DNA of 64,000 nt from Actinopolymorpha singaporensis (GTDB lineage: Bacteria > Actinomycetota > Actinomycetes > Propionibacteriales > Actinopolymorphaceae). Position numbers and translations under genes: made by a program. A model generated the notes under the pieces. The model did not search any database, was not told the origin of the DNA, and worked only from the letters and a program-made list of their open reading frames with translations. Location: positions 1-64,000 of the forward strand of contig NZ_LT629732.1 of the NCBI RefSeq assembly GCF_900104745.1, read 5' to 3'. Of the stretch, positions 6,918 to 48,682 are shown one piece after another; position 1 is the first letter of the stretch, and each line of letters starts with the position of its first letter.

Positions 6918-6922
6918 CGGAC

Positions 6923-8266
<1,344 letters not shown>

Positions 8267-8331
8267 TCACCCTAGCGGCGCCGCCTGTGCGCACCGCGAA
8301 CCGACCCGCGCACCGCCGGGATCACTCGCGA

Positions 8332-9393: not shown

Positions 9394-9412
9394 CTGCGGG
9401 GCCACGGTGGGG

Positions 9413-10027: not shown

Positions 10028-10112
10028 GGGACCTCTTCTCGTAACGGAAACCAGCCACGTCGCACCCGATCGTACGCAGGGCCTTCCGGCGGCGGGCCGA
10101 CGGGCCGGACCC

Positions 10113-10118
10113 TACTCT
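10113..10118 (+). promoter_or_regulatory. Candidate -10 element for a leaderless histidine kinase transcript
   Basis: TACTCT ends seven bases before the A of the ATG at 10125, with no ribosome site between. That spacing is typical of actinobacterial leaderless genes. No good -35 was found. Confidence 0.35.
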
Positions 10119-10124
10119 CGACCC

Positions 10125-27383: not shown

Positions 27384-27673
27384 GAGTTCCCCCCAAGGAA
27401 CGAAACCCCGCCGGCACCTCAGGGTTGGAGGTGAGATGTCGGCCAGCGCGGCAAGATGCCGCGTATGCGTGAATGGTGCCAGTCCAAGTCCCCCAGGACC
27501 ACAAAAGTAACCATATCTTTCTGAACGACACCGATGGCCGGACTCGTCTCGTATCCTCGGGGATGGTCAGGGGCAGATCGGTGCAGGTCACACAGTCCGG
27601 CGACGGTGCAACTTCCCTGCCCCGAACGACGGCCCGGTCGGCCTTCGCACAACCCACCCTGGGAGGCCACCCG
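27384..27673. promoter_or_regulatory. Divergent promoter region, AT-richer than its surroundings
   Basis: This separates the beta-propeller gene (minus) from the polymerase gene (plus). The AT-rich core 27501-27526 contains AACCATATCTTTCTGAAC, which shares 13 of 18 positions with 34064-34081 in the other divergent region of the locus. A common regulator site or promoter element is possible. Confidence 0.35.
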
Positions 27674-29167
27674 GTGCGGGACGAGCAGCGCGAGAGTGCG
27701 CGGAACGCCATGCTCACAACGCGCCCGGCGACAACTCCTCCGTCGACGGATCCAGCAGCGACGTCCGCGACGCCACCGGCTGCGACGACACGGGCCACGA
27801 CGGTGACGCCTCCGGTGGGCACCGGGTCGGCCGGTTCGTGGACCACCCCGAGGGTGTTCAGGCCCGGGTGGCCGCTGACGGCGTTGTTCCTGCTGTTCCC
27901 GTTGTGGTGGGTACTCGGCCTCACGTCGTTCGCGTTCGTCATCTTCGCTGTGCCGCTCGCCGTCGAACTCCTTCGCCGGCGGGGACTGCGCGTACCCCGC
28001 GGCTTCGGCACCTGGCTGCTGTTCCTGGCCTGGATGCTGGCCGGCGCGACCATGCTGTGGAGCGACGCACCCACCGGCGAACCCGGTGGCGGGGGCGCCG
28101 GGCGGCTGATGGTGTTCGGCTTCCGCGCCGCGATGTACCTCGCCGCGACCGTCTTCCTGCTCTACGTGGTGAACGCCGACGAGCGCCGGCTGCCGACCCG
28201 TCGGGTGCTGCGGCTACTGGGGTTCATGTTCGTCGTCACCACGTGTGGCGGGCTGCTCGGCGTCGTGGCGCCAGGGTTCGAGTTTCGCTCGGTGCTGGAG
28301 TTGGTGCTGCCGCACGCGGTGGCCGCCAACTCGTTCATCAACCCGATGATCCATCCGGCTGCGGCCGAGACGCAGAACATCCTCGGGTACGCAGAGGGCC
28401 GGCCGATCGCGCCGTTCGCGTTCGCCAACTCCTGGGGCGCCAACTATTCGCTGTACCTGCCGTTCTTCCTGCTGGCGTGGTTCGGTCCCGACGCGGGGTG
28501 GCGGCGCAGGCTGGCGCCGATCGTCCTGTTGCTCAGTCTGGTGCCGGTGGTCTACTCGCTGAACCGCGGACTGTGGGGGGCACTCGGCGTCGGCATCCTC
28601 TACCTCGCGCTGCGGCTGGCCGCGATGGGCAGGGTGTGGGCGTTGCAGGCCGTGGTGGCGGCGCTCCTGCTCGGCGCCATCGCGTTCGTCGCCAGCCCGC
28701 TCGGCACGATGGTGCAGGCCCGGCTCAACGCACCGCACTCCAACGAACGCCGGTCCCAGCTCGCCACCGACACCGTACGCAACGTGGTGGAGGGATCGCC
28801 GGCCCTCGGCTTCGGATCGACCCGGAAGGTACGCGGCAGCTACTTCTCCATCGCCGGCGGATCGACACCGGACTGTCCGGCCTGCGGTGTGCCGCCGCTC
28901 GGCACGCAGGGCCAGCTGTGGATGGTCGTCTTCTCCCAGGGGCTGGTGGGCCTCGCGCTGTTCCTGTACTTCTTCGCCCGGCGGTTCATCGCGCACTGCC
29001 GAGATCGTGCGGCGCTGTGCATCGCGGGGTGCGTCACGCTCATCTTCTGGGCCATCGAGCTGTTTGTCTACGACACTCTCGACGCCCCGCTGATCACGGT
29101 GATGATCGCGGTGGGGCTGATGGCGCGGATGCCGCGGACGGAACGAAGGGCAGAGGGGGCGCGATGA
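27674..29167 (+). CDS. Wzy/O-antigen-ligase-like polysaccharide polymerase
   Basis: This is a 497-residue integral membrane protein. After a 60-residue Thr/Pro-rich cytoplasmic start come about ten hydrophobic helices (LTALFLLFPLWWVLGLTSFA onward) and a large extracellular loop between late helices containing NERRSQLATDTVRNVVEGSP and GFGSTRKV. This layout, with a periplasmic-side loop near the C-terminus, is that of O-antigen polymerases and ligases (WaaL/Wzy). It would join repeat units outside the membrane. GTG 27674 was chosen because GGGAGG lies seven bases upstream; ATG 27710 is an alternative. The stop overlaps the next start (ATGA). Confidence 0.8.
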   Translation: MRDEQRESARNAMLTTRPATTPPSTDPAATSATPPAATTRATTVTPPVGTGSAGSWTTPRVFRPGWPLTALFLLFPLWWVLGLTSFAFVIFAVPLAVELLRRRGLRVPRGFGTWLLFLAWMLAGATMLWSDAPTGEPGGGGAGRLMVFGFRAAMYLAATVFLLYVVNADERRLPTRRVLRLLGFMFVVTTCGGLLGVVAPGFEFRSVLELVLPHAVAANSFINPMIHPAAAETQNILGYAEGRPIAPFAFANSWGANYSLYLPFFLLAWFGPDAGWRRRLAPIVLLLSLVPVVYSLNRGLWGALGVGILYLALRLAAMGRVWALQAVVAALLLGAIAFVASPLGTMVQARLNAPHSNERRSQLATDTVRNVVEGSPALGFGSTRKVRGSYFSIAGGSTPDCPACGVPPLGTQGQLWMVVFSQGLVGLALFLYFFARRFIAHCRDRAALCIAGCVTLIFWAIELFVYDTLDAPLITVMIAVGLMARMPRTERRAEGAR

Positions 29168-30444
29168 GCGAGCTGCCGTGGCCGGCCACCGAGGACCGCC
29201 ACCAGACCACGCTGGAGGCGCTGCTGGAGACCATCCGGCTGTTGTGGCCCGCACCCGCGTGCAGCCGGGCCGAGGGCCCGCTGCCCCAGGACCACCGGGT
29301 GGTACGCGAGTACGCCCTGCTGCCGGACCGGCGTCAACCCCGGCTTGCGCTTCCGGTGGGAACCCCGCGGGTCGCCGCGGAGCTGTTCCGGAAGTACAGC
29401 CAGGGGCTGTCCCGCCGCGAGCGGTACAGCCGGGCCGCGATGGCTCGGCTGGCCGGCACCCGCCTCGGCAACAGTGCCGTGGCCCGGTTCGCCCCGGACC
29501 GGCTCACCGTCAGCGTGCCGGCAGGCCGGCCGGTCGAGTCGATCGAGGACCACCTCTCGCAGCTCCTGGGCAGCGACGTACTGGTCACGGTCGGCGTCGG
29601 CCCGCCCCGGGCCAACCGCAAGCCGATCCTGCGAGCGCTCACACCGGACGGTCGCACTCTCGCCTTCGTGAAGGTGGGGTCGTCGCCGGTGACCACCGAA
29701 CTAGTCCGTGGTGAGGCCGAGGCGCTCGGGCTGTACTGGTCCGCCGGCCCGGCGGGGCAGCTCGTCCGTGCGCCCCGCGTCCTGCACCACGGGCGGTGGC
29801 GCTCGCTGGAGCTGCTGGTCCTCGAGCCCATGCTGCCCGGCCGCACCCGCTGGAGCCGCCCGGACGTACCGACCGCCGCGATGGCCGAGCTCGGCGGCCG
29901 GCTCGGTACGACCCGGCGCCCGCTCGACCGCAGCCTGGTGTGGGAGGGCGCTCGGGCCGGCCCGCCCGCGTTGACCGACCCGGACCAGGCGGCGGCACTC
30001 GCGCGGATCGTCGCCACCGTGGAGCGCCGCTTCGGGTCGACACCGTTGACGTTCGGCGCCTGGCACGGCGACTGGACCCCGTGGAACATGGCCTGGGACG
30101 ACGACCAGGTGTTGTTGTGGGACTTCGAACGCTTCGCCGTCGGCGTCCCGCTCGGGTTCGACCTGGCGCACTACCGCCTGCAGTCGATGCTGCGCTCGTA
30201 CGGGGAGGCGGCCGCGGCCGAGCGGGCGCGAGCAGGTCTGCTCACCGGCGGGGCCGCCCGGGGGTCGGCAGGGGAAGCGGCGGGCGACTGTGCGCCCGGT
30301 GACGATCCCGAGGCCGTCCAGGTGGTCTACCTCGTCGAGCTCGCCCGCCGGTACGCCGTTGCCAGCCAGCCCGTCGAGGGCACGCCGCTGCGTGCCCGCA
30401 CGGCCTGGCTGATCGCGTTGCTGAGGGGACTGGTGGACCGATGA
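29164..30444 (+). CDS. Phosphotransferase-fold (APH-like) protein in the polysaccharide locus
   Basis: This is a 426-residue protein whose C-terminal half has an aminoglycoside-phosphotransferase/kinase fold: Brenner-type loop GAWHGDWTPWNMAWDDD (about residues 296-312) and the metal motif VLLWDFERFA (about 314-323). A Lys in TLAFVKVGSS (about 165) could be the ATP lysine. The N-terminal 120 residues are not assignable. In this position it more likely phosphorylates a sugar, lipid carrier or polyol precursor than an antibiotic. It overlaps both neighbours by ATGA, so it belongs to the four-gene polymerase-Wzz-GT operon. Confidence 0.75.
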   Translation: MSELPWPATEDRHQTTLEALLETIRLLWPAPACSRAEGPLPQDHRVVREYALLPDRRQPRLALPVGTPRVAAELFRKYSQGLSRRERYSRAAMARLAGTRLGNSAVARFAPDRLTVSVPAGRPVESIEDHLSQLLGSDVLVTVGVGPPRANRKPILRALTPDGRTLAFVKVGSSPVTTELVRGEAEALGLYWSAGPAGQLVRAPRVLHHGRWRSLELLVLEPMLPGRTRWSRPDVPTAAMAELGGRLGTTRRPLDRSLVWEGARAGPPALTDPDQAAALARIVATVERRFGSTPLTFGAWHGDWTPWNMAWDDDQVLLWDFERFAVGVPLGFDLAHYRLQSMLRSYGEAAAAERARAGLLTGGAARGSAGEAAGDCAPGDDPEAVQVVYLVELARRYAVASQPVEGTPLRARTAWLIALLRGLVDR

Positions 30445-31868
30445 CCGGCACCACCCCGGCCGACACGGCGTCCGTCACCGCACCCGGCCCTGGTACGACG
30501 TCCGACACCATGGACACCCTCGAGGTGGCGGGGTACTCGCGGTTCGTTCGCCGGCACTGGCTGGTGTGCTGCCTGTTGGGCCTGGTGGGGTTGGCGATCG
30601 GCATGCTGGGGTCGCTGCGTACGCCACCGAACTACCAGTCGACGGTCGAGGTGTTCGCGCCGGCGACGCCTGCCTACCTCGCCATCTCGGTCGACCCGGC
30701 GGCACCGGCCGTCGACCCACGGGAGTGGACCCAGGACACCGAGGCCGCGTTGCTGCTTTCGGAGCCCGTGCTCACCGCGGTCGCCCGCCGGCTGCCCGGC
30801 CACCCCGATCCTGCGACTCTCGCCGACCGGACCGAGATCACCGTTCCCACGAGCACCCGGGTGTACCAGATCGGCTTCAGCGACCGCGACCCCCGGCGAG
30901 CTCAGCAGGGAGCGCAGGTGCTGGCCGAGGAGTTCACCCGCTACCGGACGAAGATGCTCACCGCACGCGCCGACCGGGTGGCCACGGCCCTCGACTCCCG
31001 CCGTACGTACCTCCAGGACCTGCTGGACGCCATTCCGGTACCCGGCAGCATGCAACCCGGCGACTCCGAAGCCGACACGGCTGCTCCCGGTCCCGCACCC
31101 GCCAACCTGGTGCCACGCGGGCAGATCCAGTCCCAGATCGGCCAGATCGACGATGCGCTGACCAAGACCGCGCTCACCGGGTCGAACACCGCCACGGTCG
31201 TGCATCCAGCCACCCTGCCGACACGGCCCGAACGCCACAACGCCGAGGTACCGCCGATGTCCGGGCTGATGGCCGGACTGCTGGCCGGACTGGCCGTCGG
31301 CGCGGCGCGCGAGTGGGCCCGTCCGGCAGTGCACGAGGTCGCGGAGGTCGCCGCCGCCACCGGCCTGGCGCCGGTCGCCCTCGTCGACGGGCGGGCCCTG
31401 CGCCGTCCCGCGGGGCACCGCGACGCCGCCGACCTGCATCCTCTCGCCGTACAGGTCCGGCTCATCCTCGCCGGGGAGTCCGCCGTCGGTTCGGCCTCTG
31501 GTTCCGCCACCGGTCCGGCCGGCCCTTCGATCGATGATCCCCCGGTCGTCCTCGTCACCGGGCCCTGTGCGGACGACCTGACCGCCGCCCTCGCCGACCA
31601 GTTGCGTACCGAACTGACCTCGGCGGCCCACACCGCCGGTGACCCGCTGCTGAACGTGCGCGTACCCACCAGCCGTCCCGACGCCAGGGACACCTTCGCG
31701 CTGGCCCGGGCCTCGGACGCCGTGCTGCTGGTCGCCGACCTCGCGCAGAGCACCCGGACCGAACTCGACCGTTGCGCCCGCCTGCTCACCCGGGCAGCGG
31801 GGCCGCGCGTCGCCACCGTCGCGATCGGCAACCGGTCGACCCGCGCCGAACGGAGCAGCTTCAGATGA
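30441..31868 (+). CDS. Wzz-like chain-length/export protein with a degenerate ATPase domain
   Basis: This is a 475-residue protein. Two transmembrane helices (about 38-58, HWLVCCLLGLVGLAIGMLG; about 272-292, MSGLMAGLLAGLAVGAA) flank an extracellular Wzz-type domain beginning NYQSTVEVFAP and including RDPRRAQQGAQVLAEEF. The C-terminal cytoplasmic part (about 300-475) has the strand order of a BY-kinase domain, but the P-loop position reads VLVTGPCADDLTAALADQL with no Gly-Lys-Ser/Thr. It is therefore unlikely to bind ATP in the usual way. It probably sets chain length with the adjacent polymerase. ATGA overlaps occur at both ends. Confidence 0.78.
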   Translation: MTGTTPADTASVTAPGPGTTSDTMDTLEVAGYSRFVRRHWLVCCLLGLVGLAIGMLGSLRTPPNYQSTVEVFAPATPAYLAISVDPAAPAVDPREWTQDTEAALLLSEPVLTAVARRLPGHPDPATLADRTEITVPTSTRVYQIGFSDRDPRRAQQGAQVLAEEFTRYRTKMLTARADRVATALDSRRTYLQDLLDAIPVPGSMQPGDSEADTAAPGPAPANLVPRGQIQSQIGQIDDALTKTALTGSNTATVVHPATLPTRPERHNAEVPPMSGLMAGLLAGLAVGAAREWARPAVHEVAEVAAATGLAPVALVDGRALRRPAGHRDAADLHPLAVQVRLILAGESAVGSASGSATGPAGPSIDDPPVVLVTGPCADDLTAALADQLRTELTSAAHTAGDPLLNVRVPTSRPDARDTFALARASDAVLLVADLAQSTRTELDRCARLLTRAAGPRVATVAIGNRSTRAERSSFR

Positions 31869-32860
31869 ACACCCACCCCACGTCGTCCACCAGCACTCCT
31901 TCGGCCGTACCACCGGGCATGCCGTTGGTCTCGGTCGTCATCGCAACCCGCGACCGGCCCGAACTCCTCCGCCGTGCCGTGCGCGCGGCCCTCGGCCAGG
32001 ACTACGCCGGCCCGGTCGAGTGCGTCGTGGTGTTCGACCAGACGCCACCGGACACCTCGCTCGCCACGGACAGGGGCCCCGGCACGAGCACCGGCGACCT
32101 CGCCCGCCGCCCGGCCAGGTCGATCCGGGTGATCGGCAACACCCGCACGCCCGGCCTGGCCGGTGCCCGCAACTCCGGCATCGACGCCGCCGCCGGGGAG
32201 CTGGTCGCGTTCTGCGACGACGACGACGAGTGGCTGCCGGACAAGCTGCGGCTGCAGGTTGCGCAACTGTCCGCGACGGGCGCCGACGTGGCCGTGTCCG
32301 GCATCGAGGTCCACTACGAGGACCGGGTGATCACCCGGGTCCCGTCCACCGCCGACGTCGTAGCCGTCGCGATCGCCCGGCACCGGGTGATGGAGGCGCA
32401 CCCGTCGACGGTGCTGGTGCGCGCCGAGGCGCTGCGCGACCGCATCGGACTGGTGGACGAGAAGATCCCCGGCAGCTACGGCGAGGACTTCGACTGGATA
32501 CTGCGCGCAGCGCAGTCCGGACCGATCGCTGTCGTCGAACGCCCACTGGTGAAGGTGTTGTGGGGCAGCCAGTCGTACTTCTCCGACCGCTGGGCGACCA
32601 TCATCGAGGCCATCGACTACGGTCTCGCGAAGCACCAGGTGTTGCGCACCGACCCCGTCGCGCAGGCACGGCAGCAGGGCAGGAAGGCATTCGCGTACGC
32701 GGCCATCGGTGACCGGCGGTCGGCGCTGCGCTGGGCCCGGCACACCCTTCGGCTCAACCCGCGCGACCCACGCGCCTACGCCGCGATCGCGGTCGCGCTG
32801 CGGTTCGTGTCCGCCGACCGGGCGATGCGGCTGGCGAACTCGGCCGGCCGCGGAATTTAG
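31865..32860 (+). CDS. Family 2 glycosyltransferase
   Basis: This is a 331-residue GT-A enzyme. After a short Thr/Ser/Pro start, the nucleotide-sugar fold begins PLVSVVIATRDRPELLRRAVRAAL. RNSGIDAAAGELVAFCDDDDEW carries the metal-binding DXD (about residues 118-123). The acceptor region has IPGSYGEDFDWILRAAQSGP, with the ED(F)D catalytic-base motif. It would transfer a sugar to the growing lipid-linked repeat unit in the cytoplasm. The C-terminal helices (about 270-331) resemble a TPR-like tail (ALRWARHTLRLNPRDPRAY). ATG 31865 overlaps the preceding stop. It is convergent with the Alg13-like gene, 13 bases away. Confidence 0.9.
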   Translation: MNTHPTSSTSTPSAVPPGMPLVSVVIATRDRPELLRRAVRAALGQDYAGPVECVVVFDQTPPDTSLATDRGPGTSTGDLARRPARSIRVIGNTRTPGLAGARNSGIDAAAGELVAFCDDDDEWLPDKLRLQVAQLSATGADVAVSGIEVHYEDRVITRVPSTADVVAVAIARHRVMEAHPSTVLVRAEALRDRIGLVDEKIPGSYGEDFDWILRAAQSGPIAVVERPLVKVLWGSQSYFSDRWATIIEAIDYGLAKHQVLRTDPVAQARQQGRKAFAYAAIGDRRSALRWARHTLRLNPRDPRAYAAIAVALRFVSADRAMRLANSAGRGI

Positions 32861-32873
32861 GGTCTGTCCTGCC

Positions 32874-33374
32874 CTAACTGAAGAGACCGGCCACCAGTGA
32901 GCCGAACCGCTGCACGGTCGCGGCCGTCTTCCGGTCGTCGTCGGTGTCGCCGCGCCGCACCATCACCGGATCGGCCAGCGCCGCGTCCAGCAGGAGCTCG
33001 AACTCGTGCTGGGTGGTCGCGGTGAGTACCTGGCCGGTCTGCGCGAGCCGGTCGGTGAAGAGGTACTGATGATCGTCCACGTGCTCGCCCCACCGCGACC
33101 GCCGCGGTACGACGATCGGGCGGCGGCCGAGACGCCGGGCCTCGACGATGGTGGTCGGCCCGCCGTGACACACGAGCACCTGGGCCTTGTCCATCCAGGC
33201 GTTGAGCTCGTCGGGTTCGACGTAGGCCAGGCCACGGGCGTGGCGGGGAGGCATGGACGTGCCGTACTGGATCATGCAGTCGTCGGCAGGGAACCGCCTG
33301 CTCCACTCGTCGACCCAGCGAACGAGGCGGTGGAACGGGTGGTGGTCTGTGCCCACCATGGTGAGGACTCGCAT
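32874..33374 (-). CDS. Alg13/PssE-like glycosyltransferase subunit (GT28 C-terminal fold)
   Basis: This is a 166-residue protein matching the UDP-sugar-binding half of a split GT-B enzyme. It begins RVLTMVGTDHHPFHRLVRWVDEW and has the GT28-type donor motif VLVCHGGPTTIVEARRLGRRPIVVPR and a following GEHVDDHQ. Alone it lacks the acceptor half, which the next gene supplies. Such pairs (PssD/PssE, EpsE/EpsF, Alg14/Alg13) add the second sugar to a lipid-linked intermediate at the membrane. It lies 15 bases after its partner on the minus strand, so the two are co-transcribed. Confidence 0.88.
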   Translation of the reverse strand: MRVLTMVGTDHHPFHRLVRWVDEWSRRFPADDCMIQYGTSMPPRHARGLAYVEPDELNAWMDKAQVLVCHGGPTTIVEARRLGRRPIVVPRRSRWGEHVDDHQYLFTDRLAQTGQVLTATTQHEFELLLDAALADPVMVRRGDTDDDRKTAATVQRFGSLVAGLFS

Positions 33375-33389: not shown

Positions 33390-33893
33390 TCAGAGGAGGG
33401 TTCCCACCACGTGGGAGCCCTTGTAAAGCGTGGCTTGCTCTTCCCACTGGACGCAGAAAAGGGACGACAGCGGCCGGCACAGCCGCCCGGTGAGGGTGCG
33501 GCTGTCGAGCCGGTCGTACACCTCGAGGTAGACGGTCCGGATCCGCATCAGCCGGGCGACAAGGAAGAACGGGAACGCCACACCCGCACCGGTGGAGACG
33601 ACGAGGTCGGGGCGTTCACGACGGATGACGCGCACGGCCAGCACAAGGTTGCGTACGAGGTTGCGCAGACTGCGGGTCGTCGGGAAGTACGCCCACGCGA
33701 CCTGCTCGTCGCGGAGCCTCGCCTTGGCGTCCTGGGTGGCGAACGTGACCCAGGTTCTCTCCCGCCCCTCCCACCAGGGTTTCAGGGCGAGGAGCTGGGC
33801 GAGGTGACCGCCGCTGGAACCCACCAGGAGCAGGCGCTGCGGTGACGTGGTCACTGCCTCTTCGGCCGGTGCGGCCTCGTTGATCACGTGCAT
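33390..33893 (-). CDS. Alg14/PssD-like glycosyltransferase subunit (acceptor half)
   Basis: This is a 167-residue protein. LLLVGSSGGHLAQLLALKPWW (about residues 21-41) is the Alg14/PssD N-terminal GGH motif. VRVIRRERPDLVVSTGAGVAFPFFLVARLM and TVYLEVYDRLDSRTLTGRL are typical membrane-associated segments that recruit the Alg13-like partner. It forms the acceptor half of the split glycosyltransferase with the next gene. ATG 33893 was chosen because it fits the family length and has a G-rich ribosome site; the open frame extends to 34022 through AT-rich DNA without similarity. Confidence 0.87.
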   Translation of the reverse strand: MHVINEAAPAEEAVTTSPQRLLLVGSSGGHLAQLLALKPWWEGRERTWVTFATQDAKARLRDEQVAWAYFPTTRSLRNLVRNLVLAVRVIRRERPDLVVSTGAGVAFPFFLVARLMRIRTVYLEVYDRLDSRTLTGRLCRPLSSLFCVQWEEQATLYKGSHVVGTLL

Positions 33894-34205
33894 GTTCGCC
33901 CCCCCGACGATTCTGAGCACGGTGCGTGGTGGAAAGTGCCGAAATAGGTGATCTTTTGCCTTCGGAGGTGAGTGGTGGGGCTGCGATTGAACGTCGTGGT
34001 GGCGGAGAAGGTCCCAGAACACTTGCTGGAGCTAGGTACTACCCACCGCTTATGGGTCTCATAAACCAATTCTTGCTCAGAAGATAGGGGAAAGCACCCG
34101 GCGGCGCAGGACCGTTGCCGACCGGCAACAATCGTCCCAAACGGCACCGAAACACGGGCTGCTGGTCTACCGTCGGTCCAGCACGGCACGGGAGTTGGGG
34201 GGTTC
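33894..34205. promoter_or_regulatory. Divergent AT-rich promoter region in the polysaccharide locus
   Basis: This 312-base gap serves the Alg14-like gene (minus) and the second Wzz-like gene (plus). The core 34020-34095 is notably AT-rich for this genome. It holds the hairpin or operator-like inverted repeat TTATG-GGTCT-CATAA (34050-34064), followed at once by AACCAATTCTTGCTCAGA (34064-34081), which resembles 27509-27526. The plus-strand gene has GGGGGG just before its ATG. Confidence 0.45.
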
Positions 34206-35921
34206 ATGCGCGACGACGACAACGCGTCCGCGCTCACGTCGTTCGTACTCGACGCGCTCCGCCGTCATCTCGTTCTCCTGGTCGTCCTCGGCGTGGTGTT
34301 CGGAGCGGCCGGCGCCGGGGTGGCACTGCGCAATGGTCTGCACTACACCGCGAGCTCCTCGATCCTGTTGAGCCCTCTCCAGGGCAATCCGTACACCCCC
34401 GACGGCCGCGGCGACCAACTCGTGAACCTCCAGACCGAGGCCCAGCTCGTCGGCACCAACGGCGTGGCCTCCGACGTTCGCCGACGGCTGCACCTGTCGC
34501 AGAGCGTGGAGGAGATCCGCACTCACGTCGCGGTGGAGAACCCCACCAACACGCAGGTCCTGAAGGTGTCGTACACCGCCCGCTCCTCCCGCGACGCGGT
34601 CCGTGGTGCGCAGGCGTTCGCCGACTCCTATCTCTCCTATCGCGAACGGCGTGCGAACTCGATCATCAGTTCCCGGCTGAGCAAGATCCACCAGCAGCAG
34701 ACCAGAACCCAGCGGTCGCTGGACGAGCTGAGCGACGAGATGGGCCGGACGGACACGAGCGATTCCCGGCGGGCCTATCTCGCCGAACGCCTGAGCGCAC
34801 TGGCCTCCCAGCTGGCCAGCCTGGAGAGCGAGACCAGCACCCTTACCGCGAGCGACCAGTGGCCCGGCCAGGTGATCAGCTCCGCGGCACCGGACTCGGG
34901 CACCGGGCCCCGCGACGCGATCGTTCTCGGTGGCGCCGGCGCGGTCGCCGGCCTGTTGCTCGGTGTGGCTCTCGCGTTGCTCCGGACGCGGGTCGACCCG
35001 CGGCTGCACCACCCTTACGACGTCGAGCATCTGGGCGTCCAACTGCTCGGGCTGGTCGGCTCGGGCCGGCGGATGCGGCTGCGCCGATCCACCACCGACC
35101 CGATCGACCTGTCCGAGCCCTACCGCGCGCTGCGTACGTCGATCATCACCGGCACCGACGTCCCGCCGGTGACGCTCACGGTGACCGGGATGTCGGACGG
35201 AATCGGCGCGGCTCCCGAGGCCGCCGGGCTCGCGGTGGGTCTGGCCCGGGCAGGGTTCGGCGTCGCGGTCGTCGACACCACCGGCGAGGTGTCCCGGCTG
35301 CTCGTCGGCGGCGGTTCGCAGCTTCCCGGGTTGTCCGAACTCCTGGCCGGTATCGCCGACCTGACCGAACTGCTGGTCCAGCCCGAGGACAACCTCGCCG
35401 TGCTCCCTCTCGGCTATCCCGCCCGGCAGACCATGGACCAACTGCTTTCCGAGCCCATGCGGGCAACCCTGACCCGGCTTCGGGAGTGGTACGACTACGT
35501 GATTCTCTGCGGACCGCCGGCCGCCGGAGCCGACGGGCAGGCACTGGCCTCGCTGGCCGACGGCGTGGTGCTCGTCGGCGCGGTCGGCGTCACCACCCGT
35601 ACCGAGCTCACAGTCGCGACCGCGGCACTTGAGCACGTCCACGCCGTGCTGCTCGGCGCCGTGATGGTCGAGGGGGTGTCGGCGCGCCGCGGCGGAGGCG
35701 GGCACTCGCGCCGCCAGGAACGCCGGGAGGAACGCCGGGGACGCGAGGCGGGTGGCCGCCGGCCCGCCCACGGCCAGGCCGTACGGCCCCGCTCCCCCGA
35801 ATACACCCGGCAGGCCGGGCCCCCTCCGGCCGGAGCTCGTCCGACCAACGGCGGCCACTGGTCGTCCAACCCGACCGCGGACACCACGGTCGACGAACCA
35901 CTCGACCGGCCACGGTCCTAG
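34206..35921 (+). CDS. Wzz/BY-kinase-like protein with a degenerate P-loop
   Basis: This is a 571-residue polysaccharide co-polymerase. Helix 1 (about 22-43) and helix 2 (about 236-260, AIVLGGAGAVAGLLLGVALALL) enclose a Wzz domain with coiled-coil segments (RLSKIHQQQTRTQRSLDELS). The cytoplasmic domain (about 300-480) resembles a bacterial tyrosine kinase with SEPYRALRTSI and a Walker B-like YDYVILCGPPA. Where Walker A belongs it reads VTGMSDGIGAAPEAAGLA, without the P-loop Lys-Ser/Thr. The C-terminal tail is Arg/Gly/Pro-rich and lacks a Tyr cluster. It probably works as a scaffold rather than an active kinase. It is followed 13 bases later by the flippase fusion. Confidence 0.82.
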   Translation: MRDDDNASALTSFVLDALRRHLVLLVVLGVVFGAAGAGVALRNGLHYTASSSILLSPLQGNPYTPDGRGDQLVNLQTEAQLVGTNGVASDVRRRLHLSQSVEEIRTHVAVENPTNTQVLKVSYTARSSRDAVRGAQAFADSYLSYRERRANSIISSRLSKIHQQQTRTQRSLDELSDEMGRTDTSDSRRAYLAERLSALASQLASLESETSTLTASDQWPGQVISSAAPDSGTGPRDAIVLGGAGAVAGLLLGVALALLRTRVDPRLHHPYDVEHLGVQLLGLVGSGRRMRLRRSTTDPIDLSEPYRALRTSIITGTDVPPVTLTVTGMSDGIGAAPEAAGLAVGLARAGFGVAVVDTTGEVSRLLVGGGSQLPGLSELLAGIADLTELLVQPEDNLAVLPLGYPARQTMDQLLSEPMRATLTRLREWYDYVILCGPPAAGADGQALASLADGVVLVGAVGVTTRTELTVATAALEHVHAVLLGAVMVEGVSARRGGGGHSRRQERREERRGREAGGRRPAHGQAVRPRSPEYTRQAGPPPAGARPTNGGHWSSNPTADTTVDEPLDRPRS

Positions 35922-35934
35922 GGAGATACACGCG

Positions 35935-38900
35935 GTGAGTTCGGTGACTGCGGCTGCTACGTCGAGTACAGCGAGTACGCCATCCATCCAACGGCTGGCA
36001 CGCAACGGAATCCTCAACCTGGCCGGCACGCTCGTCGGCGGGGCGGCGAGCATCGCCCTGGTCGTGGTGGTCGCCAACGGCGTCCCCCAGGACGTCGCCG
36101 GGATGCTGTTCGCGGCCACGTCGTTCTTCCTCATCGTCACCGCGATCTCCGGCCTGGGGACCGACGTCGGCCTGGCGCACACCATCCAGCGCCAGCTCGC
36201 CGCCGGCAGTCTCGCCGGCGCGGTGCGCACGGTGTGGATCGCCCTGCGTCCCGTCCTCGGGCTGAGTGCCGCCGCCGCGGTGGTGGTGTGGCTGGTCGCG
36301 CCGTGGCTCGCGACCGTGCTGGGCACCGGTGAGAGCGGCGGCGTCACGAGCGCGGAGCACGGCGCCACGATGACGGCGATGCTGCGCGTGCTCGCGGTGA
36401 GCCTGCCGGTTGCCACGGCGTACGACACGATCCTCGCCGCCACCCAGGCACACCAGACGATGCGGCCCAACGTCATCGTGGAGAAGCTCGGCCGGCTGCC
36501 CGGGCAGATTCTCTGCATCGTGGTCGTGCTGCTCGTCGGCGCCGGCCCGGTGTGGCTGGCGGTCGCCTGGGTCGCGCCGTACGCCGTCGGCCTGCTCGGC
36601 GTAGCGTGGTGGTACCGCTCGCTCGTGGCCAGGCTGCAGGCCGACCCGGCCGGCGACCCCCTCGGCCCGACGCCGGGAGACGTCGCGCCGCCGGCCACCC
36701 TCGCCCGTGACTTCTGGGGATTCACCGCCCCCCGTGCGCTGGGCCGGATCTGCCAGGTCGCGCTGCAGCGCTCCGACATCGTCCTGGTCGCCGCGCTGCT
36801 GTCCCCGCGGCACGCGGCCGTCTACACCGCCGCGACCCGCTTCCTCGTCCTCGGCCAGCTCGGTGTCCAGGCCATCCAGCAGGTGCTGCAGCCGCAGCTC
36901 GCGGGGTTGTTCGCCCGCGGGGACCTGGCGGGGGTTCGCGAGGCGTTCTCGGCGTCGACCGCGTGGCTGATGGCGCTCGCGTGGCCGATCTACCTCTGCA
37001 GTGCGGTCGCCGCACCGGTGCTGCTGAAGGTGTTCGGCGGTGGGTACGAAGCCGGCCGGGCCACGGTCGTCATCCTGGCCCTCGCCATGCTGGCCACCAC
37101 CGCCACGGGTTCGGTGGACGTCGTCCTGCTCATGGCCGGGCGCAGTCGGCAGAGCCTGGTCAACAACGCCGCCGCCCTCGTCGTCGACGTCGTGCTCGTC
37201 GTCCTCCTGGTTCCCCGGCTCGGCATCACCGGTGCGGCGATCGCGTGGGCGGCCGCGCTCGCGGTCCGCAACACGCTGCCGATGGTGCAGGTGCGGCGGG
37301 CGTACGGCGTGATGTCGTTCGGCCCGCCCGTGCTGTGGGTCGCCGCATCAGCGGGTCTGTGCTTCGGTGTGGTTCCGCTGCTGGTGCACCTCGTCGCACC
37401 GATGAACGTCGGTGTGGTGATCGGCTGGCTGGTCCCGATGTGTGCGGTGTACGCCGCGCTGTTGTGGAAGGGCCGAAACCACCTGCAGCTCGCGGCGTTC
37501 AAAACGGCGCTGGCGGGCATACCCATGGGCCGGATCGGCGCTCCGGTGCGGCGCCTGCACGGCCGGGCCCGGCAGACCGCCGGGGAGACCCTGCTGGCCG
37601 GCGTGAACGCGCTGCGCCGGTTACCGCTTCCTCAGGGCGCCCGGGTGGCGTTGTCCACGCTGGTGCTCCGCAGGCCCGGGCTGGCACGGGTGCCGCTGGA
37701 CCGGCTGCTGCTCGGCATCCAGGACGGCGTACCAGCGGCCCCCTACGCGGCGGAGTTCGACGACCTGCTGTGGGCATCCACGCCGATCACCCGCGGGCCG
37801 CACGCCGACCTGCTCCGCCTGGCGGCCGAGCACGGTGAGCTGACCGACGAGGCCATCCTCGCCTCGCCGTACGCCGAACACGCCCGCCGCTGCCTGCTGC
37901 TGACCGGACGCTACTTCTGGGCCACCGACGAACGCGGTGTCGTCGAGGTCGCCCGGTCGTTCCTTGCCCGGGCAGCAGCCGCCGGCCCGCCCGGGGGCGT
38001 GCCGTCGCCGATCGCGGTCGGTACGGCGGTGGGAACCGCCGTCGCCGGCGCGGCCGGCCCCGATCGAGCGACGGGCACCGTGCAGACGACCGGCGCGACG
38101 AATGGCCCGACGAACGGTCCGGGTACCGGCCCTGCGACCGCATCGACACCTGACAGCGGCGGGGAGCTGGTGCGGGCCGGGCAGAGCGGCCCGTCCGACC
38201 CGATCCTGGTGGCACCGATCCGCGACTCCGACTGCTTCCAGGTGCTCGACGGCCACCACCGCCTGGCCCTGCTCGCGCACCGCGGCGCGGAGTCCGCCTC
38301 GGTGAAGGTGAAGCGCGTTGCGGTGACGACGCCGCTGCAGGACCTGCTGGGGCAGATGAGCTGGATCGGCGGGAAGAAGGAGCTGTACCAGCCGATCGAC
38401 GCACCCGAACTGCAGCGCAGCTGGACGACCGTACGCCGTTGCACCGACCGGCTGTCGATGATGGAACGCCGGCTGGCGACCGAGGGCATCGACGGGCCCG
38501 GCCACAGCTACCTCGACGTGGCCTGCTGCTACGGGTGGTTCGTCCACCGGATGGAAGAGCGCGGGTTCGCGGCCGAGGGCATCGAACGCGACCCCCTGGC
38601 ACCGCGGCTCGCCGCCGGCGTCTACGGGCTGGACCCGGCCAGGATCACCGTGGGCGACGCCGTGGAGTTCCTCCGCGCGGCCCGGGACGCCGGCCGGAAG
38701 TGGGACGTGGTGTCCTGCTTCAGCCTGCTGCACCACTTCGTCCTCGGCCGGGCCAGCGTGTCCGCGGAGGAGTTGGCCGGACTCCTGGATTCGGTGACCG
38801 GGCGAGTGCTGTTCCTCGACACCGGCCAGGAGCACGAGGCGTGGTTCGCCCGGTCGCTGCGCGGCTGGGACACCGAGCACGTCCACCGCTTCCTCACCAC

Positions 38901-39030
38901 TCACACGAGCTTCGACCGGGTGGTCGACCTCGGACCGGACGAGGACGCGGTGGCGCCGTACGCCGACAACTACGGCCGGCACCTGTTCGCCGGGATCCGC
39001 TCCGCACGTCCGGACGACCCACCGCTCTAG
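35935..39030 (+). CDS. Flippase (Wzx-like) fused to a ParB-like domain and a SAM methyltransferase
   Basis: This is a 1031-residue fusion. Residues about 20-530 form a MATE/Wzx-type lipid-linked oligosaccharide flippase with about 14 helices (NGILNLAGTLVGGAASIALVVVV onward; FTAPRALGRICQVALQRSDIVLVAALLS). Residues about 610-790 are soluble and include VLDGHHRLALLAHRGAESASVKV (about 771-793), a ParB/Srx-like motif, split by a low-complexity Ala/Gly/Thr linker. Residues about 830-1025 are a class I methyltransferase: YLDVACCYGWFVHRME (motif I), GIERDPLAPRLAAG, ITVGDAVEFLRAA and VVSCFSLLHHFVLG. GTG 35935 has AGGGAG ten bases upstream. It could couple methylation of the glycan precursor to flipping. 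No internal stop or frame break is present, and no second ribosome site was seen at the domain joints. Confidence 0.85.
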   Translation: MSSVTAAATSSTASTPSIQRLARNGILNLAGTLVGGAASIALVVVVANGVPQDVAGMLFAATSFFLIVTAISGLGTDVGLAHTIQRQLAAGSLAGAVRTVWIALRPVLGLSAAAAVVVWLVAPWLATVLGTGESGGVTSAEHGATMTAMLRVLAVSLPVATAYDTILAATQAHQTMRPNVIVEKLGRLPGQILCIVVVLLVGAGPVWLAVAWVAPYAVGLLGVAWWYRSLVARLQADPAGDPLGPTPGDVAPPATLARDFWGFTAPRALGRICQVALQRSDIVLVAALLSPRHAAVYTAATRFLVLGQLGVQAIQQVLQPQLAGLFARGDLAGVREAFSASTAWLMALAWPIYLCSAVAAPVLLKVFGGGYEAGRATVVILALAMLATTATGSVDVVLLMAGRSRQSLVNNAAALVVDVVLVVLLVPRLGITGAAIAWAAALAVRNTLPMVQVRRAYGVMSFGPPVLWVAASAGLCFGVVPLLVHLVAPMNVGVVIGWLVPMCAVYAALLWKGRNHLQLAAFKTALAGIPMGRIGAPVRRLHGRARQTAGETLLAGVNALRRLPLPQGARVALSTLVLRRPGLARVPLDRLLLGIQDGVPAAPYAAEFDDLLWASTPITRGPHADLLRLAAEHGELTDEAILASPYAEHARRCLLLTGRYFWATDERGVVEVARSFLARAAAAGPPGGVPSPIAVGTAVGTAVAGAAGPDRATGTVQTTGATNGPTNGPGTGPATASTPDSGGELVRAGQSGPSDPILVAPIRDSDCFQVLDGHHRLALLAHRGAESASVKVKRVAVTTPLQDLLGQMSWIGGKKELYQPIDAPELQRSWTTVRRCTDRLSMMERRLATEGIDGPGHSYLDVACCYGWFVHRMEERGFAAEGIERDPLAPRLAAGVYGLDPARITVGDAVEFLRAARDAGRKWDVVSCFSLLHHFVLGRASVSAEELAGLLDSVTGRVLFLDTGQEHEAWFARSLRGWDTEHVHRFLTTHTSFDRVVDLGPDEDAVAPYADNYGRHLFAGIRSARPDDPPL

Positions 39031-39104: not shown

Positions 39105-40139
39105 CTAGGGGTTGAAGTACGGCAACAGCCCCGTGGTGCGATACGCCTGCAACGACGCCGTCGTGGAGTCGATGCGGGTCGCCCCGACCGTCCGGTCGGA
39201 CGCGGCGTTCCAGTACACCATCGCCTTCACCGCAGGCCAGTTCTTCGCCTGTGAACCCACGGCCTTGAAGAAATCCGGTTTTCCGGCCGGATTTCCTGGC
39301 TGCTCGGCGACTCCCCATTCGGCGAGCATCAGTGGCTTTCCGGGCGCGAACTGCGTGGCCCAGGTGTAGAAGCCGGGCCAATTCGGGTACTGCGAGAACT
39401 TCCGATTGAAGAGATCGGAAACGGGGCCCCAGTAATCGCCACTACCGAAGATGTACGGGTCATAGGCGATCCAGTCGACCACGTCGTTGCCGGGGTAGAG
39501 GTCCTCGAACCACGACTTCGAGCCCCACGTCGGCAACCCGATGTAGTTCATCACGGTGACGATCTGGGTGGCTCCGTTCCCGCGCAACCGCTGCACGACG
39601 TGGCGATACATCGCGCGGTAGTCCTGTGCGGAGTAGCCGGATCCCGACGTCTGAACGACCTCGTTCTCCGGTTCGTGGTGGATGACAAGGAAGAAGGGCT
39701 GGTTGAAGTGGGCCTTGACGTACGCCGCCAGCTCGTCCAGCCTCTGGTCCTGCGCACCGGCTGCCACCTGCGCCCAGGTCTTCCCGCCCTCGGGCTTGTA
39801 GTTGATCAACAGCAGGCGTCCCTTGCCTGCCTGGTTGGCCCGGGCTATCTCCGTCGCCGTCGGGAACAACTGCCCGGACGAGTGGTAGTAGTGCGCGATG
39901 TTCACCGGACGCTGAATCTGGTTCTCGAAATTCGTCAGCGCCTGGTCCCAGCTTTCCCCGGCAAGGGGATTGGCGGCAACGCCCCACCACGCGCCACATT
40001 TCGGCGTGAGCTTTGTGCCCACACCGCAGGTGCTCTTCACGACTTTCCCCGCCGGCGTCGACTTCTGGCCGGGCTGGCAGGCGGCACCGGCAATCAGCAC
40101 GACCACGAGTACTACTGCGAGAAAAAGTTTCCGAAACAC
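39105..40139 (-). CDS. GH26-like glycoside hydrolase lipoprotein
   Basis: This is a 344-residue exported lipoprotein. The signal helix ends in the lipobox IAGAAC (Cys21). The catalytic barrel resembles family GH26 (beta-mannanase/endo-glucanase clan A): the acid/base Glu lies in FFLVIHHEPENE (about residue 155) and the nucleophile Glu in PLMLAEWGVAEQ (about 273). Aromatic residues line the cleft (YDPYIFGSGDYWG, AMVYWNAASD). It probably trims or degrades the polysaccharide made by this locus or a related mannan. Codon ends are visibly more A/T-rich than in neighbours (for example 39270-39300), which may mark a separate origin. GTG 40139 has a GGGAGGGG site upstream. Confidence 0.82.
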   Translation of the reverse strand: MFRKLFLAVVLVVVLIAGAACQPGQKSTPAGKVVKSTCGVGTKLTPKCGAWWGVAANPLAGESWDQALTNFENQIQRPVNIAHYYHSSGQLFPTATEIARANQAGKGRLLLINYKPEGGKTWAQVAAGAQDQRLDELAAYVKAHFNQPFFLVIHHEPENEVVQTSGSGYSAQDYRAMYRHVVQRLRGNGATQIVTVMNYIGLPTWGSKSWFEDLYPGNDVVDWIAYDPYIFGSGDYWGPVSDLFNRKFSQYPNWPGFYTWATQFAPGKPLMLAEWGVAEQPGNPAGKPDFFKAVGSQAKNWPAVKAMVYWNAASDRTVGATRIDSTTASLQAYRTTGLLPYFNP

Positions 40140-44576: not shown

Positions 44577-45659
44577 TCAGAGCAGGCGCTCGCGGCGGCG
44601 CCACGCGGTGGGCGGGCGGCCGGTGCGGTCGCGGAAGATCCGGGAGAAGTAGTTCGCGTCGGCGAACCCGCACCGCCGGGCGACCTGGGCCACCGTCAGC
44701 GGCGTGGTGCGCAGCAGCCCGCGGGCGCGCTCGATCCGCTGGTCGAGGACCCACCCCATCGGCGACCGGTGCAGATAGGTGTCGAACCGACGGCTCAGCG
44801 TCGCCCCGCTGCAGCCGGCGACCTCGGCCAGCCCGGCCACGGTGAGCCGGTCGGCCAGATGGTGTTCGACGTACGCCAGAACGCGGCGCAGCTCGTCCGG
44901 CACCACACAGGTGTCGGAGCTGCCGCCGCCGACGCCTCCCCCGAAGCCGGCCGGTCCGGCGTACCCCGCCTGGTCGCCGGTGCGCGCGGCGAGCTGGTAC
45001 GCCAGCCCGGTCAGCTCGTCGACCATCATCGTGCCGAGCGCCCGGATCGACGCCTCCGACGGCGTACCCCGCCGCCACACCTCCACCGCGTACGCGCTCA
45101 GCTGCGCCAGTCCCGGCGCGGCGTCCGCGGTCGTGGCCACCACCTGCGTACCCAGGTCGGGCTCGCCGTCGCGCCGCCAGCGGCAGCCGGCGTAGCGGTG
45201 GTTCGGGTCGTGCGGGACCGTCGGCTCCAGCGGGAACCCCTCGTCGTGCCGCGGTACGAGGTGCACACCGACCAGCAGGAACGGGTCCACCTCGGCCGCC
45301 GTGTAGTGGATCCGGTGTCCCCACGGCAGGACGAGCAGCACACCCGGGACCAGTGACCAGCGCACCCCGTTGACCCGAGCCTCGCCCCGGCCGGCCCGGC
45401 ACCAGGTCACCATGCGCGACTCCACGCGGGGAAAGCCGAAGCGTTCGCCGGGGCCGAACTGCACGGCGTTGGCCTGCAGCAGCGCAGGGAACGCGGGCGG
45501 CGCCGGCGGGGTGCGAACCGGATCGAGGGGCTGCACGAGAGCCTGACCGAGGGGCTGACCGAGGGGCCCGCCGAGAGGCTTCGGTGCCCGTGCCGGTTCG
45601 GTCACCGCGGTGGTTCCCGAGGCTGCCCGCGGCGCCACGTCCGGCAACGGACCTGTCAT
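44577..45659 (-). CDS. AraC-family transcriptional regulator
   Basis: This is a 360-residue regulator. An N-terminal cupin-like sensing domain (about 50-210) includes GVLLVLPWGHRIHYTAAEVDPFLLVGVHLVPRH. The C-terminal AraC DNA-binding domain (about 265-360) has two helix-turn-helices: LADRLTVAGLAEVAGCSGATLSRRF and LTVAQVARRCGFADANYFSRIFRDRTGRPP. ATG 45659 was chosen; it has GGAGG upstream. It is divergent from the dioxygenase-epimerase-dehydrogenase operon, 109 bases apart, and most likely controls it in response to a sugar-like ligand. Confidence 0.9.
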   Translation of the reverse strand: MTGPLPDVAPRAASGTTAVTEPARAPKPLGGPLGQPLGQALVQPLDPVRTPPAPPAFPALLQANAVQFGPGERFGFPRVESRMVTWCRAGRGEARVNGVRWSLVPGVLLVLPWGHRIHYTAAEVDPFLLVGVHLVPRHDEGFPLEPTVPHDPNHRYAGCRWRRDGEPDLGTQVVATTADAAPGLAQLSAYAVEVWRRGTPSEASIRALGTMMVDELTGLAYQLAARTGDQAGYAGPAGFGGGVGGGSSDTCVVPDELRRVLAYVEHHLADRLTVAGLAEVAGCSGATLSRRFDTYLHRSPMGWVLDQRIERARGLLRTTPLTVAQVARRCGFADANYFSRIFRDRTGRPPTAWRRRERLL

Positions 45660-45768
45660 GCGTGGATCCTCCAGTCTTCGACAGCCCAGACCATGTCGCG
45701 ACGGCCCCGGTGCGTGGTGGGCTGGACGCATCCGCCGATCGGGAGCGAACGCGCACTCGGGAGCGACC

Positions 45769-46785
45769 ATGACCACACCGGCGACGACACCGACGACACC
45801 GGCCACGCCGGCTACGGCGGCGCGCACCGCGGACTTCCTCGACTCCTCCGCACTCCTCGACGACCCCGCCGCGCTGCGGGCCCGCGCCGACGAGCACGGC
45901 TACCTGTTCTTCCGCGGACTGCTGCCCGTCGACGACGTGCTCGACCTGCGCCGGCGGTTCCTGCAGATTGTCCGCCGGTACGGCTGGCTGGTCGACGGAA
46001 CGCCGGTCTCGGACGGCATCGCCGACGTCGCGGCGTTCGACCGGGTGCCGCGTGAGGAGACGGCCTTCTGCGGCGTGGGCATCACCAGAGCGGCCTACGC
46101 CGACATCCAGCGGGTACGCGAGTTCCACGAACTCGCCCACCATCCACGGCTGCTCGCGGTCTACCGGAACCTGTTCGGCGAGGACGTACTCCCCCATCCG
46201 CGCAACATCGCCCGGGTGGTGATCCCGGGCGGGGTCACCCGGCCGACGCCACCGCACCAGGACTTCATCCACATCCAGGGAACGCCGCGGGTGTGGACGG
46301 CGTGGTTCCCGCTCGGCGACTGCCCGCGCGAGCTCGGCGGCCTGTCCGTGCTGGACGGCTCGCACCGCGAGGGCCTGATGTCCTACCACGCGGCCGAGGG
46401 CGCCGGCGGCCTGGAGGCGTATTTGTGCGACCTCGACCTGCCGTGGGCGCAGGGCGACTTCGCGGCCGGCGACGTACTGACCTTCTCCAGCCACACCGTC
46501 CACCGTGCGTTGCCGCACGCGGCCATCGACCGGGTGCGGCTGTCCTGCGACTTCCGTTACCAGCCGGCGGCGGATCCGCTGCACGAGGGATCGCTGCGGG
46601 TGCACTGCGACGTACTGGGCTGGGACGAGGTGTACGCGGACTGGCCGGACCCGTACGCGCCGGCCACGTCCGGCTCCGGCCGTAGCTGGTCCCCGGGCGA
46701 CGTGCGCTGGTACTGGCGCGACCTGAACCTGCGGCGCAGCGAGTGGGACGAGTCGATCCGCTGGCAGAAGGACCGCATCTGCTGA
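45769..46785 (+). CDS. Phytanoyl-CoA dioxygenase (PhyH)-family oxygenase
   Basis: This is a 338-residue Fe(II)/2-oxoglutarate-dependent oxygenase. After a Thr/Pro/Ala-rich start, the double-stranded beta-helix core carries the metal site H-x-D in TPPHQDFIHIQGTP (about residues 163-169) and the distal His in FSSHTVHRALPH (about 245-251), with an Arg (DRVRLSCDFRYQP) to hold 2-oxoglutarate. PhyH-type enzymes hydroxylate small molecules; the substrate here is unknown. It is the first gene of an operon opposite an AraC regulator. The start is ATG 45769 after GGGAGCG. Confidence 0.88.
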   Translation: MTTPATTPTTPATPATAARTADFLDSSALLDDPAALRARADEHGYLFFRGLLPVDDVLDLRRRFLQIVRRYGWLVDGTPVSDGIADVAAFDRVPREETAFCGVGITRAAYADIQRVREFHELAHHPRLLAVYRNLFGEDVLPHPRNIARVVIPGGVTRPTPPHQDFIHIQGTPRVWTAWFPLGDCPRELGGLSVLDGSHREGLMSYHAAEGAGGLEAYLCDLDLPWAQGDFAAGDVLTFSSHTVHRALPHAAIDRVRLSCDFRYQPAADPLHEGSLRVHCDVLGWDEVYADWPDPYAPATSGSGRSWSPGDVRWYWRDLNLRRSEWDESIRWQKDRIC

Positions 46786-47695: not shown

Positions 47696-48682
47696 ATGTT
47701 GCGTGTCGCAGTCGTCGGCCTGGGCAACATCGGCAAGACGCACTCCCGCTACTACTCGGAGAACCCCGACGCCGAGCTCGTCGCCCTGTGCGACATCGAC
47801 GCCGGCCGGGTCGACCCGGTGGCCAAGACCTACGGCGTACCCGCCTATCACGACCTCGGTGAGATGCTCGCCGCCGAACGCCCGGACGCGGTGAGCATCG
47901 CCACCGCCGGACCGGAGAACGGCGGTCACCACCACGAGCCGACGATGCAGGCGATCGAGGCCGGCGTGCACGTCCTGGTGGAGAAGCCGATCTCCAACAA
48001 CATCGAGCACGCCCGGGAGATGGTGCGGGCGGCCAAGGAGCGCGGCGTCCTCATGGGCGTCAACCTCAACCACCGTTTCACCCCCGCGGCCGAACGCGCC
48101 AAGAAGCTGCAGGAGGACGGCACGCTCGGCGAGGTGCTGTTCCTGAACATGGCGCTGTGGATCAACAACCCGAACGAGAGCTCGCCGTGGTTCCACCTGC
48201 GGGCGCTGCACCCGCACTCGATCGACGTGATGCGCTACTTCGGCGGGCCGATCGCGAAGGTGCAGGCCTTCTGCCACAAGGGCCCGGGCCGCCAGATCTG
48301 GTCCAACGCGTCGGTCAACGTGCAGTTCGCCAGCGGTGCGGTCGGTCACCTGACCGGCAGCTACGACGCCAGCGGCCTGCACCCGATCGAGCGGTGCGAG
48401 GTCGGCGGCAGCGCGGGCCGGCTGGTGATCGAGAACGTCTACCAGAAGCTGGAGTTCTTCCCGCGTACGTCGCCGGAGAAGCTGGTGGTGGAGAACTCCA
48501 TCATGGGCGGGATGGGCAACTTCAACGAGACGTTCCGCAACCGGATCAACGCGTTCGTCTCGCAGGTCGCCGCCGGCGGTCCGCTGGACGCCTCCGGTGA
48601 GGACGGCCTGGCCGCGCAGGAAGTCATCGAGGCGGCGATCCGGTCCTTCGAGAACGGCACCATCGAGGAGGTGGCCGGATGA
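47696..48682 (+). CDS. Gfo/Idh/MocA-family oxidoreductase
   Basis: This is a 328-residue NAD(P)-dependent sugar or polyol dehydrogenase. The Rossmann motif is VAVVGLGNIGKTHSRYYSE (GxGxxG-like, about residues 5-12). The family signature VHVLVEKPISNNIEHAREMV carries the catalytic EKP Lys (about 100). The C-terminal alpha/beta domain has LRALHPHSIDVMRYFGGP with the substrate-side His pair. With the epimerase it would oxidise and rearrange a sugar-like compound. ATG 47696 has AAGGAG nearby. The stop overlaps the next start (ATGA). Confidence 0.92.
   Translation: MLRVAVVGLGNIGKTHSRYYSENPDAELVALCDIDAGRVDPVAKTYGVPAYHDLGEMLAAERPDAVSIATAGPENGGHHHEPTMQAIEAGVHVLVEKPISNNIEHAREMVRAAKERGVLMGVNLNHRFTPAAERAKKLQEDGTLGEVLFLNMALWINNPNESSPWFHLRALHPHSIDVMRYFGGPIAKVQAFCHKGPGRQIWSNASVNVQFASGAVGHLTGSYDASGLHPIERCEVGGSAGRLVIENVYQKLEFFPRTSPEKLVVENSIMGGMGNFNETFRNRINAFVSQVAAGGPLDASGEDGLAAQEVIEAAIRSFENGTIEEVAG

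Follow-up and report, generated by a model that had tools for sequence, protein, structure and literature searches.

The coordination of glycan modification with flipping of the lipid-linked glycan in Wzx pathways has usually been studied with separate proteins. WbdD, the kinase-methyltransferase of Escherichia coli O9a, works in the cytosol. Its substrate is a polyprenyl-linked glycan, and behind its methyltransferase domain come a kinase of eukaryotic type and then a coiled coil, as given in the relevant sections of its description (PMC3482155). Fusions of the ParB-CTPase fold with S-adenosylmethionine (SAM)-dependent methyltransferases have also been described (Kaljevic et al. 2025, PMC12704722), in a report where neither "flippase" nor "polysaccharide" occurs in the main text. 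The gene analyzed here is located at 35935–39030 on the forward strand of the first 64,000 nucleotides of the Actinopolymorpha singaporensis contig NZ_LT629732.1, and this whole stretch is called the window below. In a single coding frame of 1031 residues, a flippase is followed by a ParB/sulfiredoxin (Srx)-fold domain and a WbdD-like methyltransferase domain. The last two are the same kinds of domains as in the described ParB-fold fusions. Compared with WbdD, the ParB/Srx-like domain precedes the methyltransferase, whereas the WbdD kinase and coiled coil follow it, and a flippase is fused to the same chain.

While ParB-fold/methyltransferase fusions and WbdD are already known, the joining of a flippase to such a pair and the presence of a ParB-like domain where WbdD has its kinase are new. 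No flippase-ParB-methyltransferase protein was found in the titles and abstract beginnings of the open-licence literature, nor was anything on the glycan of Actinopolymorpha seen there. We propose, with a probability of about 0.5, a modify-and-flip role for the protein in a Wzx-type pathway of surface glycans, in which cytosolic methylation of the lipid-linked unit would be coupled to flipping.

A single frame from the flippase to the methyltransferase

In the open reading frames (ORFs) of the window, the frame is open from a GTG at 35752 to 39030. The start codon is likely the GTG at 35935, judging from the GGGAG stretch ahead of it and its position 13 bases past the TAG of the upstream gene. 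The G+C content at third codon positions (GC3) is 0.83–0.96 along the whole fusion, and the frame is unchanged throughout. The fusion is a single open frame in all six Actinopolymorpha genomes, that of the window included, and also in G009, a genome of another genus of the family Actinopolymorphaceae. The "TAA" scored for G003 sits one codon beyond the end of its ORF, as found by comparison of the coordinates. In G018, which represents a third genus of the family, the flippase is 31% identical and the soluble half is unmatched.

The original prediction, made from the window alone, stated that the 1031-residue frame is uninterrupted and that a fusion error is unlikely. The even GC3 confirms the former, and the open frame in the orthologues of seven genomes bears out both. 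Nor are the orthologues always split: two genera of the family have the fused form, and the split form is found outside the family. No point in favor of an assembly or sequencing artefact was found, and such an artefact is ruled out for practical purposes by the single-contig genome, the fusion in seven genomes, and the constant frame.

The N-terminal part (35977–37470, +) was assigned to the Wzx/MurJ-type flippases of the MOP superfamily from Pfam, a structural model, and fold comparison. Pfam matches Polysacc_synt with 34.4 bits (cut-off 28.2) and MatE with 28.2 bits (cut-off 24.9). The whole chain was modelled with AlphaFold2 from 36 sequences, giving a mean predicted local distance difference test score (pLDDT) of 86 and a predicted template modelling score of 0.63. 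In this model, membrane helices, 14 by our count, are followed by a positively charged helical connector (37471–37683, +) between the last membrane helix and the soluble part, the ParB-like domain with a low-confidence insert, and the methyltransferase. The membrane part resembles MurJ (Z 30.6) and WzxE (Z 29.4) in the VIA comparison, and shares Polysacc_synt with the Wzx and MurJ proteins. The likeness to these proteins is confined to the membrane part, up to about residue 527 of the model. The Wzx/MATE-like flippase that had been read from the sequence is thus confirmed by both Pfam and fold; by profile and modelled fold the first half is a MOP-superfamily flippase, and it is predicted to transport a lipid-linked glycan.

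The WbdD-like methyltransferase domain

The C-terminal domain (38332–39018, +), a WbdD-like class I methyltransferase (METHYLTRANSFERASE), was assigned from profile, fold, and aligned residues. The C-terminal part matches Methyltransf_23 in Pfam with 29.1 bits, over the cut-off of 27, confirming the class I methyltransferase that had been predicted; the closest enzyme by profile is WbdD. When a profile built from 18 sequences of this domain was compared with the PDB, the E-value was 7.8e-7 for WbdD and 0.0077 for the next family. As a control, the WbdD fragment scored 34.0 bits against the profile, and the best of the other methyltransferases seen in six genomes of the genus scored 17.2, though this listing may miss others. 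WbdD is also the only methyltransferase among the 50 matches listed by VIA, with a Z score of 17.1 and a root-mean-square deviation of 3.4 over 203 residues (residues 799–1027 of the model).

WbdD residues Y16, R31, C33, R36, H132, and H133 (chain numbering minus 13) align with residues that are invariant in all 18 sequences. The Tyr codon at 38386–38388 corresponds to Y16, RRCTDR at 38434–38451 to R31–R36, with the R31-x-C33-x-x-R36 pattern aligned, and the HH pair at 38731–38736 to H132–H133. The Y16F, H132A, H133A, and R203A variants of WbdD lose phosphate methylation and keep phosphorylation, according to the mutational results in PMC3482155. For R203, no aligned counterpart was obtained, a point against the WbdD likeness. 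The sequence alignment ends before this residue, the fold alignment spans it without giving single residues, and the invariant Arg of NYGRHLF is only a candidate for its counterpart. No kinase domain follows the methyltransferase, since the methyltransferase ends the chain in the model and Pfam finds no kinase domain.

The ParB/sulfiredoxin-like middle domain

The middle domain (37684–38373, +) does not match any Pfam model at its cut-off. Its assignment to the ParB/Srx fold comes from weak sequence matches and the predicted fold, which together bear out the ParB/sulfiredoxin guess of the original prediction. The P motif pattern GxxR is present as DGHHR at 38248–38262, and DGHHR is invariant in 24 of 24 and in 19 of 19 sequences. 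A low-complexity insert, mostly of low confidence in the model, lies within the domain at 37972–38202 (+). It amounts to 36–77 residues between the flanking motifs in the seven fusion orthologues, while the stand-alone proteins described below are shorter here. A separate model of the ParB-like part, taken from the A. alba fusion, has a pLDDT of 86, and ParB, Noc, SerK, SbnI, KorB, PadC, and Srx are found in the top Foldseek and VIA matches of this model. The names obtained from PHROGs are weak and ParB-like, with at most 4 of the 19 members matching any one family.

By sequence, the nearest solved structure is a free serine kinase (profile against the PDB, E 0.005, weak), and the SerK structure entries among the fold matches include the E30A and E30Q mutants. 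The NCBIfam SerK model is weakly matched by all 14 members (best E 1.9e-5); the window protein scores 18 bits, far below the curated cut-off of 380 bits. The free serine kinases SerK and SbnI, which have the ParB/Srx fold, are like the middle domain in the DGHHR region and the core fold. They differ in that only about 35 residues are matched by sequence and in that the domain of the fusion is joined to a methyltransferase.

Pfam finds no DNA-binding domain in the window protein, where the methyltransferase comes after the ParB-like domain instead, and a role in DNA segregation was rejected on this ground. A weak HTH_23 match (E 0.066) is found in one of 14 members. The suggestion that the fusion links export to a DNA-like sensor is unsupported, given this lack of a DNA-binding domain in Pfam and the serine kinase that is closest to the middle domain among solved sequences, while a nucleotide-sensor role of this domain is possible. 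Nine weak phylum-wide matches (L056–L064) were rejected as other DGHHR proteins, in which no methyltransferase motif was seen by eye.

Stand-alone relatives and the origin of the fusion

Outside the family, a separate gene of 399–447 residues encodes both the ParB-like and the methyltransferase domain (start codons were chosen by us). The soluble half was matched in 25 of 391 genomes of the order. Seven of these belong to the own family and carry the fusion, and the other 18, all of one genus, carry the stand-alone gene; carriers of the latter include Nocardioides daeguensis and Pimelobacter simplex. A class-level search matched 7 of 394 genomes, including three of family f92 with the stand-alone gene, and the stand-alone enzyme is also found in G647, a genome of another class. 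No relatives of the enzyme were detected in plasmids or phages, each searched by tblastn at E 1e-5 with a single query of the Nocardioides group, or in viral contigs.

We read 17 stand-alone loci, namely 13 of the 18 of the Nocardioides group, three of f92, and that of G647. In 16 of them, the enzyme gene is downstream of the flippase gene on the same strand, with a sulfotransferase gene between the two in 12 and direct adjacency in four. The order Wzz-like protein, flippase, sulfotransferase, enzyme is found in 12 of the 13 Nocardioides-group loci. The enzyme gene directly follows and overlaps the flippase gene in the three f92 loci (by the ATG starts chosen), and in G647 it comes directly after the flippase gene, sharing its frame and separated from it by a single stop. 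With this neighbor order in f92 and G647, a fusion is only a short step away. In addition, since a single gene encodes the ParB-like and the methyltransferase domain in the stand-alone loci read, the fusion joins two genes, and a joining of three genes is rejected. The original prediction was right in the identities and order of the domains. As a separate observation, the stand-alone enzyme gene of G330 (locus L073) lies without a glycan cluster in 19 kb, beside a gene for a 1547-residue protein with Ig-like and DUF4962 matches.

A flippase match was found in 75 of 382 genomes, including 24 of the 25 enzyme-positive ones, by using a Nocardioides flippase as the query at E 1e-30 or better, a threshold that does not prove orthology. 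Judging from this gene content, the enzyme is optional to the cluster, because only 24 of the 75 genomes have it. A sulfotransferase is present in all eight of the enzyme-less loci that were read from the other 51 genomes. The trees of the flippase and the enzyme correlate with an r of 0.94 for 22 taxa, a value reached by 0 of 2000 permutations, though shared ancestry alone could explain it.

The flippase is also fused to another enzyme in a cluster of the same kind. In L092 (G247), the flippase and a sulfotransferase are encoded by one frame of 854 residues (8004–10568, +). This separate fusion supports a coupling of modification to flipping. The same flippase-sulfotransferase join, then a frame change, is seen in L091 (G046). 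In L089, a CDP-glycerol glycerophosphotransferase gene (6760–7848, −; Pfam E 4.7e-94) comes directly after the flippase gene, and the ParB/methyltransferase gene is absent from this locus.

The glycan cluster around the gene

By gene content, the fusion gene sits among parts of a glycan-assembly cluster that is conserved in related loci. Directly upstream is the gene of a Wzz/BY-kinase-like protein (34206–35921, +), a putative name, as the sole Pfam match, CBP_BcsQ, is below the cut-off. A split glycosyltransferase is encoded on the reverse strand by an Alg14-like half (33390–34022) and an Alg13-like partner half with the C-terminal domain of glycosyltransferase family 28 (32874–33374). These are preceded by a family 2 glycosyltransferase (31772–32860, +) and by a cluster protein of 475 residues (30441–31868, +), which has no Pfam match and is distantly like the Wzz-like protein.

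An APH-family kinase-like protein (HGDWTPWN...WDFE) is encoded at 29173–30444 (+), with its start codon not fixed. The Pfam APH match belongs to the homologue in L088, and the window protein was assigned by its 36% similarity to the L088 copy. An APH-family homologue occurs in the window and in 25 of 27 related loci that were screened for it, a count that includes L088, from which the query came. An ORF at 29334–30089 (−) was rejected as a gene; it is probably spurious, the opposite strand coding for the APH-family homologue.

Farther from the fusion are an O-antigen-ligase/Wzy-like membrane protein (27473–29167, +; its Wzy_C match is below the Pfam cut-off), a PKD-domain protein that recurs in the cluster (24543–27383, −), and a sulfotransferase (22823–23716, −) homologous to the one between the flippase and the enzyme in Nocardioides. 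On the downstream side, a putative lipoprotein without a Pfam match (39105–40139, −) is weakly like proteins that recur in related loci, and one of these proteins has a Pfam match to glycoside hydrolase family 5. A PhyH-type dioxygenase is located at 45610–46785, and a sulfatase gene is found about 10 kb from the fusion at 48679–50118 (+).

Proposed function and rival readings

The soluble half probably hangs on the cytosolic face of the membrane, because the methyltransferase needs SAM, a charged tail comes after the last membrane helix, and WbdD has a cytosolic site. At this position, the methyltransferase would methylate a polyprenyl-linked oligosaccharide, and the likeliest site would be a phosphate, as it is for WbdD. 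The ParB/Srx-fold domain would bind a nucleotide and probably either add that phosphate or hold it. We base its nucleotide role on the invariance of DGHHR and on bacterial ParB-fold/SAM-methyltransferase fusions that bound ATP in the assays reported in PMC12704722. The fused flippase would receive the marked unit at once, and modification would thereby be tied to export. Both the methylation target and the phosphorylation are what we infer. Modification of the lipid-linked unit before or during flipping, as proposed in the original prediction, remains the best-supported reading, given the glycan cluster, the WbdD-like methyltransferase, and the flippase-sulfotransferase fusion. A more specific form of it is possible but less likely than not: the ParB/Srx-fold domain would be a glycan kinase, the WbdD-like domain would methylate the phosphate, and the flippase would accept the unit marked with methyl phosphate. 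If this is true, the logic of WbdD would recur here around a kinase of unrelated fold and be connected to a flippase, not to an ATP-binding cassette (ABC) transporter.

To our knowledge, an activity is known for no member of the family, and several observations also weigh against the modify-and-flip reading. With a lone WbdD fragment as the query, ordinary methyltransferases of the genus gave E-values down to 3.3e-8 and the fusion (the G002 copy) gave 0.795; the WbdD likeness is therefore at the profile level. Among the first 50 Foldseek matches of the whole model, the methyltransferases are 3c0k and 3vse (E about 1e-4), and WbdD is missing. The scores of the ParB fold are low (best Foldseek E 0.045, Z 5.7) and amount to a weak pass. 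The SerK match is not specific, because matches to the model below its cut-off also occur at a second genomic site and in 10 of 14 controls, each a genome. Furthermore, the aligned members have no invariant Glu before DGHHR, and hence no evident partner of E30, the Glu that we take to be the catalytic residue of SerK. The stand-alone enzyme of G330 has no cluster flippase in the 19 kb read. Among the ParB-fold proteins assayed in PMC12704722, 17 of 28 bound no nucleoside triphosphate (NTP), and the SerK-like protein assayed there bound CTP. As for WbdD, the mark is read in its pathway by an ABC transporter, not a flippase, and NodS and RebM carry either His-His or Tyr-Tyr at the positions of the HH pair, so that the pair is not specific (both points as discussed in PMC3482155).

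The rival readings are not mutually exclusive. The ParB-like domain may instead be a nucleotide sensor or switch that gates methylation or flipping, with the methyltransferase making an O-methyl sugar or a methyl ester. Both ParB and Noc act as NTP switches, and the ParB-fold/SAM-methyltransferase fusions bound ATP without a known catalytic role, as stated in the relevant parts of PMC12704722; the missing partner of the serine-kinase E30 is consistent with such a sensor as well. Since the best solved sequence matches of the domain are kinases, though weak ones, and the methyltransferase profile best matches a phosphate methyltransferase, we consider this reading rather unlikely.

We think it improbable that the functions of WbdD are split between two proteins, with the phosphate added by the APH-family protein at 29173–30444 and methylated by the methyltransferase of the fusion, and with substrate binding as the sole role of the ParB-like domain. 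The wide occurrence of the APH-family homologue in the window and the related loci favors such a split, but this protein is not tied to the ParB/methyltransferase protein and is present in loci without it, L088–L092 included. We similarly doubt that neighboring genes were fused by chance, with halves acting independently and the fusion merely setting their ratio or location. The same-frame neighbors of G647, one stop apart, and the unfused Nocardioides enzyme would fit such an event, whereas the retention of the fusion in two genera and the fusion, elsewhere, of a sulfotransferase to the corresponding end of a flippase argue against it.

If the modify-and-flip reading is correct, this natural fusion places the coupling of modification to flipping within one chain, which would make the coupling simple to test. 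The ParB/Srx-like domain is found here in surface-glycan assembly, an unexpected setting for it, where a related flippase is elsewhere fused to a sulfotransferase.

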